34,921 bases of DNA from Actinomycetes bacterium (GTDB lineage: Bacteria; Actinomycetota; Acidimicrobiia; Acidimicrobiales; RAAP-2). Positions 19,923 through 25,699 of the stretch are shown here, one piece after another. Under the pieces are notes generated by a model. It made no database searches. It was given only the letters and a program-made list of their open reading frames with translations, and had not been told where the DNA came from. The translations under genes were made by a program, and so were the position numbers. Position 1 is the first letter of the stretch. Every line of letters begins with the position of its first letter. The DNA lies in NCBI GenBank assembly GCA_021837305.1, contig JAKBGV010000008.1, forward strand, positions 1-34,921. The letters are read 5' to 3'.

Positions 19923-21458
19923 GTGGCGTCCGTTCCCTCCCGACGAGACGTCCTTCGGGGCGTCGGCGCACTCGCTGGTGCGTTCGCGATCGCTTCAACG
20001 CTCGACGTCGCGGCGAACGGGGCCGCGATTCTCCCCTCTGATTTGACCGCGCAGTGGGTCCGGCGCGAGAACCTACGACCCGGTGACGGCTCGTGGCTGC
20101 GCGGCGTCGCGGCCACCGCGGGCGACCTTGAGGGCTACGCCAGTGCGACCAGCATCAACCGCGGCCAGTCGATCACCTTCTTCGTGAGCACCACGTCGCC
20201 TACCTACTCCATCAAGGTCTACCGGATGGGCTACTACCAGGGTCTCGGGGCTCGGCTCATCGAGACTCGGCTCGACCTCCCTGGTCACGCGCGCCCCATG
20301 CCGGCACCGGACCAGTACGGCACCGTCGACTGCCGGTGGCCGGCGTCCTTCCGCGTCGTCGCCGACCGGCGCTACGCGCCGGGCCAGTACCTCGTGCGCC
20401 TCGAGAACGCCGAGCACCAGTTCCGATTCGTACCGTTCCTCGTTCGAGACGATTCGTCCAGAGCCGCGTTCGTGTACATGAGTTCGGTCACCACGTGGCA
20501 GGCCTACAACACCTGGGGTGGTTTCAGCCTGTATCGCCAAGCCACGCCGGTCGGCAGCGTGACGGTCAGTGACGCCAACCGCGCCGTACGGGTCTCGTTC
20601 AATAGGCCCTACGACCGGGCCTTCGCCAATGGCGCGGCCGACTTTGTCGGTAACGAGTTCCCCCTCCTGTTCCTCGCCGAGCAACTGGGACTCGACCTCA
20701 CCTACTGGACCGACATCGACCTGCACCAGCGCGGGGCCAGCCTGACGCGACACCGGGCGTTGCTCTCGCTCGGCCACGACGAGTACTACTCGCCCGCCAT
20801 GCGCGCGGCGGTCGTCAATGGGGTCGACCACGGCGTCAATGTGGCGTTTTTCGGCGCGAACTTCTGCTACCGCAAGATCCGCTTCGAGCCGGGCGTGAAC
20901 GGCGCCGACCGGTTGATGATCAACTACCGTTCGACCGCCGACCCGATCACCGCCACCGACCCCGCACTGGCGACCGTGAACTGGAGTCAGTACCCCTCGG
21001 ACACCCCCGAGAGCACGTTCACGGGCTCGATCTACGGTGGTGTCGACGGTACCGGGTCGCTGACGGTCGTGGACGCCGGCTCCTGGTTCTGGCGCGGCAC
21101 CGGTGTTCGCGACGGCTCAGTGCTTGCCGGCGCGCTCGGGGGCGAGTTCAACCACTACGACCCCGCCGTGACCAATCCGGCCAACGTGCAGATCCTTGGG
21201 CACTCCAACGTCGGCGGTGGCATCAGTGACGTCACTTACGTGGCCGAACCCCGCCAGGGCGGCGTCTTCGCGAGCGGCACCGGGCACTGGGTGTTCGACC
21301 TGTCCGACGCGCCACGACTGGGCGACTTCTGGGTCCCTGCGGCGATACCCGGGGTCACCAACGTGATCCGTCGCGCGACGATCAACCTCCTCGCGCGCTT
21401 CGGGTCCGCCCCCGCGGGCGACACGACACGGTCGATCGCCAACACGAGCCAGTACTAG
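19923..21458 (+). CDS. Tat-exported N,N-dimethylformamidase-like (beta-subunit family) protein
   Basis: The 511-aa product starts with a twin-arginine signal (SRRDVLRGVGALAGAFAIAS, with R7-R8), so it is probably exported folded. The rest resembles the large-subunit family of N,N-dimethylformamidase: an early beta domain (SINRGQSITFFVST, YSIKVYRMGYYQG) and the long C-terminal domain with SFNRPYD, LTYWTDIDLHQ, LLSLGHDEYYSPAMR and VAFFGANFCYRKIRF. Many actinobacterial homologs have no known substrate, so activity on dimethylformamide should not be assumed. The GTG start is supported by the TAAACT box six nucleotides upstream. The 3' end stops ten nucleotides before the convergent lipBA gene. Confidence 0.75.
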   Translation: MASVPSRRDVLRGVGALAGAFAIASTLDVAANGAAILPSDLTAQWVRRENLRPGDGSWLRGVAATAGDLEGYASATSINRGQSITFFVSTTSPTYSIKVYRMGYYQGLGARLIETRLDLPGHARPMPAPDQYGTVDCRWPASFRVVADRRYAPGQYLVRLENAEHQFRFVPFLVRDDSSRAAFVYMSSVTTWQAYNTWGGFSLYRQATPVGSVTVSDANRAVRVSFNRPYDRAFANGAADFVGNEFPLLFLAEQLGLDLTYWTDIDLHQRGASLTRHRALLSLGHDEYYSPAMRAAVVNGVDHGVNVAFFGANFCYRKIRFEPGVNGADRLMINYRSTADPITATDPALATVNWSQYPSDTPESTFTGSIYGGVDGTGSLTVVDAGSWFWRGTGVRDGSVLAGALGGEFNHYDPAVTNPANVQILGHSNVGGGISDVTYVAEPRQGGVFASGTGHWVFDLSDAPRLGDFWVPAAIPGVTNVIRRATINLLARFGSAPAGDTTRSIANTSQY

Positions 21459-21471
21459 CGACGTTGCGCTA
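21456..21471. terminator. Short inverted repeat made of the two convergent TAG stop codons
   Basis: TAGCG, a 6-nt loop ACGTTG, then CGCTA. Each arm starts with the TAG stop of one of the two convergent genes. The stem is only 5 bp, so a termination role is uncertain, but the layout echoes the hairpin at 10215-10236. Confidence 0.3.
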
Positions 21472-23094
21472 CCTGCGCGCCGGTAGTGGCAGCGGCGTCG
21501 CCTCGCGCAACGCTTCGCCGGCGTGGTAACTCGATCGGGTGAGCGGCGAGGACTGCACGTGGTTGAGGCCAAGGCGGCGACCGCGTCGGGCCAGATCCTC
21601 GAACTCGGCCGGCTCCCACCACCGGGCCACCGGCACGTGGTTCGCCGTAGGGCGGACGTACTGGCCGATCGTCGCGATCGAGACCCCCACCGCCGCCAGG
21701 TCCGCGAGGGTCTCTTCGACTTCCTCGACGGTCTCGCCGAGGCCGACCATCATGCCTGACTTGGTCGTCAGGCCTTGCGCACTAGCGCGCGCGAGCACCG
21801 TCAGCGATCGCAGGTACCCCGCGCTCGGCCGGACGGCCCGCTGGAGTCGCGCCACGGTCTCGATGTTGTGGTTCACCACGTCGGGGCGCACATCGAGGAT
21901 CAACTGCAGGCTCTCGAGGTCGCCCTTCAGGTCGCTGATCAACACCTCGACAGCCGTCTCGGGCGAGCGTTCACGGATCGCCGTAACGGCGGCGGCGATA
22001 GCGCCTGCGCCACCGTCGGCCAGGTCGTCGCGGGCGACGCACGTGATTACCGCGTGGCGCAACCCGAGTCGTACCACGGCCTCGGCGACCCGATCAGGCT
22101 CGGTCGGGTCCAGGGGTAGCGGCTTGCGGGTGTCGATGAGGCAGAAGCCGCACGCCCTCGTACACCGCTCCCCATTCACCATGAACGTCGCCGTCCCCGA
22201 CGCCCAACACTCATAGATGTTCGGACAACCCGCCTCTTCACAGACCGTCACGAGACGCAGGTCATCGGTCAACTTGCGCAGCGACTGGTACTCGGTACCC
22301 ATGTGCGCCTCGATACGAAGCCACGAGGGTTTACGCGAGTGCAGCTCGACACCGGCGTCGGGGTCGACACCGGCTTTGCGCAGCCGGCGTAGCAGTGGTC
22401 GTTCCGACGTCGAGGTTGCGCCACTGCGGTCGACCGCGGCGAGCGAGCCCGGGCCACCGAGCGCCGAGTCGAGCGTGGCACCCAGGTACTCCTCGACATC
22501 AGCGAATACGACGTCCAGACCGAGCGAGCGCATGGAGCCGACGGGCTTGTCGGGGATGCCGCACGGCACAATCGCGTCGAACGCTTTCAGATCGACGTCC
22601 ACGTTGAGCGCGACACCGTGCAGGGTTCGACGTTGACCCGTGCGGTTTCGTTCGGTGCGAACGCCCACGGCCGCGATCTTGATCGGTCGCTCGTCCAACA
22701 TGGCCCAGACCCCGGGGTAGCCCTGGAGTCGTCCGACCCGACCGAGTTTGCCCTCGGGGTCGAAGTGCACGACGGTGGCGATTACGGCGTCCTCCAAGCG
22801 GCCGACGTGTTCGCGGCCCGCCCCCGGGGCGTCGTCCACGGTGACAATGGCCCACGCGACCACCTGTCCGGGTCCGTGATAGGTCACGTCGCCACCCCGG
22901 TCGGCATCCACGACGTCCGCGTCGAGACTCGACGGCGGGACGAGGAAGTGCTCGGGAACGGCGCGGATCCCCAACGTATACGTCGGCGGGTGCTCCATCA
23001 CGAGGACGTAGTCGTCCGCCGCCTCCATCAACGCCCGCTGGAGGTCGTTCGCCTCACGGAAGGTCACCCGTCCAACGTGGCGACGGCGCAGCAT
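21469..23094 (-). CDS. lipB-lipA: LipB-LipA fusion: lipoyl(octanoyl) transferase plus lipoyl synthase in one chain
   Basis: LipB moves octanoate from acyl carrier protein to the target lysine; LipA, a radical SAM enzyme, then inserts two sulfurs. Both are in one uninterrupted 541-aa frame. The LipB part (about 1-215) has RGGDVTYHGPGQ (66-77), catalytic K139 and C178 (PCGI). After a linker around 215-235, the LipA part has the auxiliary cluster cysteines C285, C290 and C296, the radical SAM cysteines C311, C315 and C318, and the terminal RSSYHAG (520-526). All key residues are intact, so both halves should be active. The ATG follows the E2 stop codon without a gap. Separate lipB and lipA genes are the norm; a sequencing-error fusion would need a lost stop with an intact frame. 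Confidence 0.93.
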   Translation of the reverse strand: MLRRRHVGRVTFREANDLQRALMEAADDYVLVMEHPPTYTLGIRAVPEHFLVPPSSLDADVVDADRGGDVTYHGPGQVVAWAIVTVDDAPGAGREHVGRLEDAVIATVVHFDPEGKLGRVGRLQGYPGVWAMLDERPIKIAAVGVRTERNRTGQRRTLHGVALNVDVDLKAFDAIVPCGIPDKPVGSMRSLGLDVVFADVEEYLGATLDSALGGPGSLAAVDRSGATSTSERPLLRRLRKAGVDPDAGVELHSRKPSWLRIEAHMGTEYQSLRKLTDDLRLVTVCEEAGCPNIYECWASGTATFMVNGERCTRACGFCLIDTRKPLPLDPTEPDRVAEAVVRLGLRHAVITCVARDDLADGGAGAIAAAVTAIRERSPETAVEVLISDLKGDLESLQLILDVRPDVVNHNIETVARLQRAVRPSAGYLRSLTVLARASAQGLTTKSGMMVGLGETVEEVEETLADLAAVGVSIATIGQYVRPTANHVPVARWWEPAEFEDLARRGRRLGLNHVQSSPLTRSSYHAGEALREATPLPLPARR

Positions 23095-24291
23095 CTAGTG
23101 CTCGCTGTCCAGGTCCAACCCGGCGAGCAACTCGGCCACCCGCTCGAGGTACGCGGTCGCGGTGAACGGCTCACAGACACGGTGGTCGAATGACAGCCCG
23201 ATGACCACGCGGCGACCGACGCCCACCGATACACCGTCCTCGAGGACGACCGGCACCCGACGGACGGCACCCATCGAGAGCACCGCCACCTCGGGCTGGA
23301 TGATGATCGGATTGGTCCAGAGCGAGTCCGGGCCCGTCGGACCGACAAGGGTGAAGGTCCCGCCCATGAGGTCATCAGTGGTGAGCTGGCGCGTCGTGAC
23401 GCGCTCGAAGAGCTCGTGGACTCGGCGAGCGAGTGCCCGCAGCGTGAGTCCGGCCGCGGCGTGCACGACGGGCACGAGCATGCCGTCGCGCAGGACCTCG
23501 CGCATGAACCCCAGATTCACCGTCCGGTGCACCACCAACTCGTCGCCCGCGAACGTGGCGTTCAAGAACTCGAACTCGCCCAGCGCCCGAACGGCCGCCA
23601 GTCCCATGACCATCTGGTCGGTGATCTCGACACCGTCTCGCGTGTGTCGTCCGATTGCGTCCAGCTGATCGAATATCGACGCGTCGGCCTCGATCGCGAC
23701 AAACCCGTGCGGGGTGCTCTGCGTGGATAAGGTCATGTGCTGGCCCATCCGGCGAAGACCGTTGGACAACGGTACGACGACTTCGTCTGTCGGACCGTTC
23801 GCGACCGCGCGTTCCGCGTCGCGACGCGTGATCGCTCCTCCCGGACCCGATCCGTGCACCGTCGTCGGCTCAACACCGCCATCGGCGAGGATCCGACGCA
23901 CGACCGGTGACATCACGACGCCCGCCACTCGCGGCGCACCCGTGGTGGCTACGGGGTCACCGGCGACCTTGACGGGCTCCTTCGTGGTCGTTGGCGGGCC
24001 GGAACTGGGCGCTGGGGCGCTCGGCTCGGGCGACGGCGCTACCGACCCGGCGGCGGCGTTCTCATCGATCACCGCGACTCGTGATCCGGTCTCGACGGTG
24101 TCGCCTTCAGCGGCCAGGATCTCGGTCAGGACCCCCGCCGCCGGCGACGGCATCTCTGAGTCGACCTTGTCCGTCGACACTTCGAAGAGCGGCTCGTCGC
24201 GCGCGACGGAGTCGCCAACTTTCTTGAACCACCGAGTGATAATTCCTTCGGTCACCGATTCGCCCAGTGACGGCAGCGTTACATCAGCCAA
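23095..24291 (-). CDS. Dihydrolipoamide acyltransferase (E2) of a 2-oxoacid dehydrogenase complex
   Basis: The 398-aa product has one lipoyl domain (MADVTLPSLGESVTEG at the start; lipoylated K42 in STDKVDS), a Pro/Thr-rich linker (about 80-120), an E1/E3-binding domain (about 125-165, MSPVVRRILADGGV) and a catalytic core. The core's catalytic motif is usually DHRxxDG; here it reads DHRVCEP, with H370 kept and the Asp replaced by E374. Start: the TTG at 24291 overlaps the lpd stop by 8 nt and has a GGGGG-rich stretch upstream; the longer frame is inside lpd. Coupling to lpd and lipBA places it in a lipoate-centred operon. Whether it serves pyruvate, 2-oxoglutarate or branched-chain acids is unresolved, because no E1 gene is present. 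Confidence 0.85.
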   Translation of the reverse strand: MADVTLPSLGESVTEGIITRWFKKVGDSVARDEPLFEVSTDKVDSEMPSPAAGVLTEILAAEGDTVETGSRVAVIDENAAAGSVAPSPEPSAPAPSSGPPTTTKEPVKVAGDPVATTGAPRVAGVVMSPVVRRILADGGVEPTTVHGSGPGGAITRRDAERAVANGPTDEVVVPLSNGLRRMGQHMTLSTQSTPHGFVAIEADASIFDQLDAIGRHTRDGVEITDQMVMGLAAVRALGEFEFLNATFAGDELVVHRTVNLGFMREVLRDGMLVPVVHAAAGLTLRALARRVHELFERVTTRQLTTDDLMGGTFTLVGPTGPDSLWTNPIIIQPEVAVLSMGAVRRVPVVLEDGVSVGVGRRVVIGLSFDHRVCEPFTATAYLERVAELLAGLDLDSEH

Positions 24292-25699
24292 CGTGGAGCC
24301 CCCTGCCCGATAGCGCCAACAGCGTCTCGCCGAAGGTCTCCGACAGCGACGGGTGCGGCTGGATGAGTGCTGCGGCCTCCTCAGCCGTCGCCTCCCAGTT
24401 GACGGCGTAGTAACCAGCACCCAACTGCTCGGTCACCCAGGGCCCCGCCATGTGCACGCCGAGGATCTGGCCCGCCGTACCATCGGCACGCTTCTCCGCG
24501 ATGATCTTGACGACCCCTTCGGTCTCGCCGATGATCTGGGCGCGACTGTTGCCCCCGAACGGGTCCTTCTTGACCACCACGTCATAGCCCCGCTCCTTCG
24601 CGGCGGCCTCGGTGAGCCCGACGAAGGCAACCTCGGGGTTGGAGTAGATCGCCCACGGCACGCGGTCGTAGTCGACCGGCACCACTGGCTCGCCCAGGAT
24701 GGTCTTGATCGCCACGATCGCTTCGGCGAATCCGACGTGCGCGAGCTGCGGGGTGTTTGCGACGATGTCGCCGATGGCGTAGACATTGGGGTTCGCGGTG
24801 CGCATCGAGGAATTCGCGACGACGAAACCGCGGTCGTTCACCTCGACGCCGGTGCCGTCACCGAGCAGGCCCTCGCTACGTGGGCGTCGCCCGACTGCGA
24901 GCACCACTACGTCCACGACGACGTCCTCGCCACCTTCCACGTGGACCGCCGTAGCGCCCTTCTTCGGCGTGTGGCCGGTCACGTTCACCCCGGCGCGCAC
25001 GTCGATCCCGCGCTTCTTGAAGGAACGCTGGACCACACTCACGACCTCGCTGTCGCAGCCCGCGAGAATCGTGGGCAGGCCCTCGAGGATCGTGACCGAC
25101 GTACCCATGTCGGACAGCATCGACGCGAACTCACACCCGATTGCCCCGCCGCCGATGACGGCGGCGCTCGACGGCAGCGTATCGAGGTCCAGGAATTCGT
25201 CAGAGGTCAGCACGATCGTGCCGTCGACGTCGAAGCCGGGCAAGGTTCGCGGCACCGAGCCGGCGGCGAGGATCACGTTGGTCCCCTTCGCCTCTACGCC
25301 CGCGTCGGATCCGTCCACGATTCGTACGACCTGGTCGGCGTCGAGTCGTGCCGTTCCCTCGAAGATGGTCACCTTGCGACCCTTGAGGAGGCCCGAGAGC
25401 CCCTTGTGCAGCTTGTCGACGACCTCGTTCTTACGCGCCTGGCTGACCGAGAAGTCAACCGACACCTCGCCGGTGCCGATGCCGAACGCACTCGCGTGTT
25501 CGATAGTGCGACGAACGTGGGCGGTCTCGAGGAACTCCTTGGCTGGTACGCAGCCGCGGTGCAGGCAGGTGCCACCCACCTTGTCACGTTCGATCAGTGC
25601 GACGTTGAGCCCCGCCGCGGCCCCGTACAGCGCGGCGGCGTAGCCGCCGGGGCCACCCCCGATGATCACAACGTCAAACTGCTGGACCTCGTTTGCCAC
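24284..25699 (-). CDS. lpd: Dihydrolipoyl dehydrogenase (E3)
   Basis: E3 reoxidises the dihydrolipoyl groups of 2-oxoacid dehydrogenases with FAD and NAD+. The 471-aa product has the FAD-binding GGGPGGYAAA (14-23), the redox disulfide C45/C50 in GGTCLHRGCVPAK, the NAD-binding GGGAIGCEFAS, the second FAD segment around NVYAIGD, and the active-site pair H449/E454 in HPSLSE. Start: the GTG at 25699 has an AAGGGA site 8 nt upstream. A TAGGAT box 42 nt upstream is the likely operon promoter. It is the first gene of lpd-E2-lipBA. Confidence 0.95.
   Translation of the reverse strand: MANEVQQFDVVIIGGGPGGYAAALYGAAAGLNVALIERDKVGGTCLHRGCVPAKEFLETAHVRRTIEHASAFGIGTGEVSVDFSVSQARKNEVVDKLHKGLSGLLKGRKVTIFEGTARLDADQVVRIVDGSDAGVEAKGTNVILAAGSVPRTLPGFDVDGTIVLTSDEFLDLDTLPSSAAVIGGGAIGCEFASMLSDMGTSVTILEGLPTILAGCDSEVVSVVQRSFKKRGIDVRAGVNVTGHTPKKGATAVHVEGGEDVVVDVVVLAVGRRPRSEGLLGDGTGVEVNDRGFVVANSSMRTANPNVYAIGDIVANTPQLAHVGFAEAIVAIKTILGEPVVPVDYDRVPWAIYSNPEVAFVGLTEAAAKERGYDVVVKKDPFGGNSRAQIIGETEGVVKIIAEKRADGTAGQILGVHMAGPWVTEQLGAGYYAVNWEATAEEAAALIQPHPSLSETFGETLLALSGRGLHVG

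Follow-up and report, generated by a model that had tools for sequence, protein, structure and literature searches.

Lipoyl groups are made de novo by the octanoyltransferase LipB and the lipoyl synthase LipA, and both enzymes as well as the order in which they act, LipB before LipA, are textbook knowledge. The thioester formed on the LipB cysteine (PMC9307952) and the ligand roles of the LipA motifs (PMC12246082) have been described. Separate, adjacent lipB and lipA genes are found in Dietzia, Rhodococcus, Streptomyces and Nocardioides in the same gene order as in the locus described here, often with the gene of a dihydrolipoamide acyltransferase (E2) upstream. They differ from our locus in that one or two stop codons, or a change of frame, lie between the two genes, and this separate arrangement is likely the ancestral state.

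In the window, by which we mean the whole analyzed stretch of 34,921 nucleotides from a member of the Acidimicrobiia, the two genes are joined. The fusion gene lipBA occupies positions 21469..23094 of the minus strand (ATG start at 23094-23092, stop at 21471-21469) and encodes a protein of 541 amino acids; the plus strand across 21469-23094 is riddled with stops. An earlier note on this DNA had recognized LipB and LipA in a single open frame of this length. This is borne out, and the strand, which was absent from the note, can now be added. The octanoyl-ACP:protein N-octanoyltransferase (LipB) half comprises residues 1-215 (22450..23094, minus strand), as delimited by Pfam PF21948, TIGR00214 and the alignment with Mycobacterium tuberculosis (Mtb) LipB 1w66. 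It is followed by a connector of about residues 216-230 (22405..22449, minus strand), which is variable in length and sequence and has no start codon, and by the lipoyl synthase (LipA, radical SAM) half at residues 231-535 (21490..22404, minus strand), as delimited by TIGR00510 and the alignment with Mtb LipA 5exk. Pfam places the LplA/B catalytic domain PF21948 at residues 18-205, the LIAS N-terminal domain at 252-290 and the radical SAM domain at 309-465, and the LipA match in Pfam and NCBIfam together spans about residues 252-532. With 116.8 bits in the genome search and 114.2 bits in the protein scan the TIGR00214 (lipB) match lies above the cut-off of 83.55, and the TIGR00510 (lipA) match, at 331.9 and 330 bits, respectively, lies above the cut-off of 310.25. 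A structure model of the fusion protein aligns with Mtb LipB 1w66 over model residues 1-215 (Z 29.7) and with Mtb LipA 5exk over model residues 231-535 (Z 42.6).

The key residues of both families are located where the earlier note had placed them. In the LipB half we find the Cys/Lys catalytic dyad, K139 and C178, which lines up with E. coli LipB, together with H73 and H159. The LipA half carries the auxiliary cluster motif CX4CX5C (C285/C290/C296), the radical-SAM cluster motif CX3CX2C (C311/C315/C318) and the C-terminal RSSY at 520-523, all lining up with E. coli LipA; the serine of RSSY assigned to the auxiliary cluster is, by alignment, S522. K139, C178, the six cluster cysteines, R520, S521 and S522 are invariant across 44 aligned fused proteins, namely the window's protein and 43 fused relatives with identities down to 39%, and Y523 is not. 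From the strict conservation of these family residues we infer that the fusion protein would have both enzyme activities.

How far the fusion extends, which the earlier note could not say, was surveyed within the Actinomycetota. The fusion protein matches 363 of 395 Acidimicrobiia genomes, a subset of which was inspected at the locus level, and the inspected matches are fused apart from breaks at contig edges or by frameshifts and an additional copy located on a short contig. Nearly all of the matches listed for this class are single spans with both halves in one open frame, and in those genomes with two listed matches the inspected loci are still fused and have a longer linker (L115-L122). 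A renewed search of 15 nonmatching genomes of the class gave no LipA above the cut-off. None of the 58 LipA loci from other Actinomycetota is fused; a separate lipB lies upstream of 45 of them, and 13 have none nearby. Elsewhere in the phylum the matches listed consist of LipA alone or have stops before LipB. The fusion is thus class-wide in the Acidimicrobiia, and the copy in the window is intact and ordinary. In the plasmid collection the matches listed cover both halves only as two pieces, and the two that are annotated are separate lipA and lipB genes.

Several candidates for split genes in the class were examined. In G215 the LipA part contains a frameshift (L135), in L009 a frameshift lies inside LipB on a contig with a coverage of 1.25x, and the apparent splits in G279, G211, G286, G339 and others look, from their coordinates, like contig-edge or frameshift breaks. 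The extra copy, found in G052 on a contig of 5 kb (L136, contig C83), is a lipB-lipA pair without fusion; this Acidimicrobiia genome also has a fused copy, and the unfused one is probably contamination or a paralogue. A fused gene is also present in a metagenome-assembled genome titled Bifidobacterium breve (L036), which groups with the Acidimicrobiia in the LipA tree and is probably a mislabelled record.

In the LipA tree and in the LipB tree, which are both quick trees without bootstrap and with no root inferred, a single branch sets the fused rows apart (SH-aLRT 97 and 92, respectively). Because each tree places the fused forms beyond one branch, a single fusion of adjacent lipB and lipA genes is the simplest history. 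It would have taken place in or before the common ancestor of the Acidimicrobiia and would then have been kept across the class.

The genome from which the window comes (1.66 Mb, 105 contigs) is 73% complete, so that a second copy could be missed, and within it the fusion ORF is the only strong LipA match and the only LipB match. The earlier note had considered separate complete lipA and lipB genes elsewhere in the genome, and none were found in this 73% complete assembly. Four E2s are encoded, one adjoining lipBA and the others on contigs C99, C12 and C27, in addition to a GcvH. As the fusion gene is the sole lipB and the sole strong lipA, its product probably modifies all four E2s and GcvH, and lipBA is most likely the main, perhaps the only, de novo lipoyl-making route of this genome. 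A divergent second ORF of the LplA/LipM type is located on contig C9 of this genome (G000:C9:32170; L088 1432-2106). It contains the sequences RRRGGGG, RKVVGVTQWR and LHG, has a borderline Pfam score of 28.7 bits and may attach octanoate or lipoate and so offer a second attachment route.

The genes upstream of lipBA are those of an E2 (23095..24291, minus strand, with an inferred TTG start at 24291) and of a dihydrolipoyl dehydrogenase (E3; 24284..25699, minus strand, TIGR01350 over its cut-off), the first gene of an apparent E3-E2-lipBA operon. As the earlier note had stated, the fusion gene directly follows the E2 gene, the stop codon of E2 abutting the start codon of lipBA (TAGATG). The lipoyl-lysine motif STDKVDSEM of this E2 is intact. 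Its C-terminus reads FDHRVCEP as compared with the canonical active-site motif DHRxxDG; altered motifs are common to near relatives of this genus (L003-L009, L038: DHRVCEP, DHRVCDS, DHRVSDA), and DHRxxDG is kept in several other members of the class with a readable motif. Because the lipoyl motif is intact, the adjacent E2 may be a catalytically altered, carrier-like E2. On the other side of lipBA, convergent with it and separated by a gap of about 10 bases, the plus strand encodes at 19923-21458 a protein that appears to carry a twin-arginine signal and has a domain resembling the dimethylformamidase beta subunit (PF20254).

Between the conserved residues 187 and 258 the intervening segment is 55-101 residues long among the fused proteins. 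Its mean majority share is 0.40 as compared with 0.64 for LipB and 0.71 for LipA. Part of this linker corresponds to the ordinary N-terminal region of LipA, the alignment with Mtb LipA beginning at model residue 231, and the lowest interior pLDDT of the model is found at 224-226. In both deep fusion clades the connectors repeatedly show a short F-[ST]-R-G motif (e.g., L018, L037), which was seen neither in the connector of this genus nor at the C-termini of separate LipBs. AlphaFold2 modeled the window's protein with a pLDDT of 89.8 and a pTM of 0.90, and an Actinomarina member, predicted from sequences of this distant clade only, with a pTM of 0.83. By our own estimate a pTM of about 0.55-0.6 would be expected for two such domains without a fixed relation, and a defined packing of the halves is therefore predicted. 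With each of the two models, known structures of LplA ligases align across LipB and then with the same LipA helix, at about 433-444; the alignment ends mostly at about 433-441 in the window's protein and at 435-444 in the Actinomarina model. This indirectly suggests the same relative placement of the halves in the two predictions, which are not fully independent since most rows of the second alignment also occur in the first. According to the models, a fixed packing of the two halves is probable.

Any reading of the locus has to face the question whether two genes have been joined by an assembly or annotation artefact. The assembly of 105 contigs, being 73% complete, leaves room for such an error. 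The earlier note had pointed to residues 205-245 as the place where it would become visible, but neither a stop nor a frameshift is found there, and in 60 Acidimicrobiia loci, which stem from many separate assemblies, the sequence joining the LipB part to the LipA part likewise stays in one frame and is free of stops. The fused gene is also present in an isolate (Acidiferrimicrobium, L035) and in single-contig genomes. Residues 200-257 contain no ATG, GTG or TTG codon, so that a standalone LipA cannot begin there from a common start codon. The dN/dS of the linker is about 0.06-0.16 (0.10 in comparison with the closest relative), similar to both halves, and the linker thus evolves as coding sequence under purifying selection. 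With the junction open in 60 loci we reject the artefact, whose probability we regard as negligible. Another reading would restrict the fused gene to the service of the adjacent E2 complex. The abutting stop and start codons and the apparent operon would fit this, but three further E2s and a GcvH are encoded in the genome, which has no other lipB. Moreover, an E2 gene is found near lipB-lipA also in relatives with unfused genes (L048-L056, L109, L114), and since they share the arrangement the adjacency points to no special link with this E2. We therefore consider exclusive service to be very unlikely. The proposal of the earlier note that the adjacent E2 could be the substrate stands in so far as this E2 is probably one substrate; it is not the sole candidate among four E2 lipoyl domains and GcvH.

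With high confidence we thus regard lipBA as encoding a bifunctional octanoyltransferase/lipoyl synthase that arose by one lipB-lipA fusion and most likely provides the main, perhaps the only, de novo lipoyl route of the genome. The LipB half would take octanoate from octanoyl-ACP, hold it as a thioester on C178 and transfer it to the lipoyl-domain lysine of an E2 or of GcvH; the LipA half would then insert two sulfur atoms drawn from its auxiliary [4Fe-4S] cluster. The fusion would set a 1:1 ratio of the two activities and hold both sites close. Whether it does more than that is a matter of how the halves are arranged. They could be two independent enzymes on a floppy linker, tethered so as to be made in equal amounts only, with neither channelling nor a working interface. 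The poor conservation and the variable length of the linker agree with this, and separate LipB and LipA suffice in relatives and in E. coli; the high pTM of both models and the LplA structures reaching the same LipA helix in each of them argue in the other direction, and we give simple tethering an even chance. The channelling considered in the earlier note, in which the octanoylated lipoyl domain would stay on the enzyme while moving from LipB to LipA, has in its favour that the two steps are consecutive on one carrier, and the predicted fixed arrangement of the halves is compatible with it but is no proof. The lipoyl domain, however, would have to reorient between two protein-sized docking sites, and channelling appears rather doubtful to us. 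Still more tentatively, the models allow an integrated enzyme in which a helix of the LipA barrel (about 427-439) would dock on LipB, at the position that the final helix of the catalytic domain occupies in lipoate ligases, and one bound domain would be octanoylated and then sulfurated with little release; this we hold to be unlikely.

To sum up, sequence and conservation as well as phylogeny and predicted fold speak for a LipB-LipA enzyme in a single chain. Both steps of de novo lipoylation have here been joined by nature in a single protein, and the Acidimicrobiia, a large class of soil and water bacteria, have retained this union throughout; among the Actinomycetota sampled the fusion marks the class as a group. 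It offers a natural single-protein system for asking if sulfur insertion is coupled to octanoyl transfer, and possibly a one-gene lipoylation module for engineering. We found no description of a LipB-LipA fusion in the open-access papers searched, and the passages of Tanabe et al. 2023 (PMC10332631) that the search reached make no mention of one. Domain databases may well show the fusion already.

Among the closest known systems is NCBIfam NF053790, LplA_LipA_fuse (bifunctional lipoate-protein ligase/lipoyl synthase), which likewise has an attachment enzyme N-terminal to LipA. Its attachment half is the ligase LplA, whereas that of our protein is LipB, and the fusion protein scores 350.8 bits as compared with a cut-off of 800, matching only profile positions 328-605, that is, the LipA half. 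With LipB (TIGR00214; Mtb LipB 1w66) the protein has in common the fold, the Cys/Lys dyad and the motifs RGGxxTYHGPGQ and HGxALN, and it differs by the additional C-terminal LipA domain. With LipA (TIGR00510; Mtb LipA 5exk, human LIAS) it shares the fold, CX4CX5C, CX3CX2C and RSSY, to which it adds the N-terminal LipB domain.
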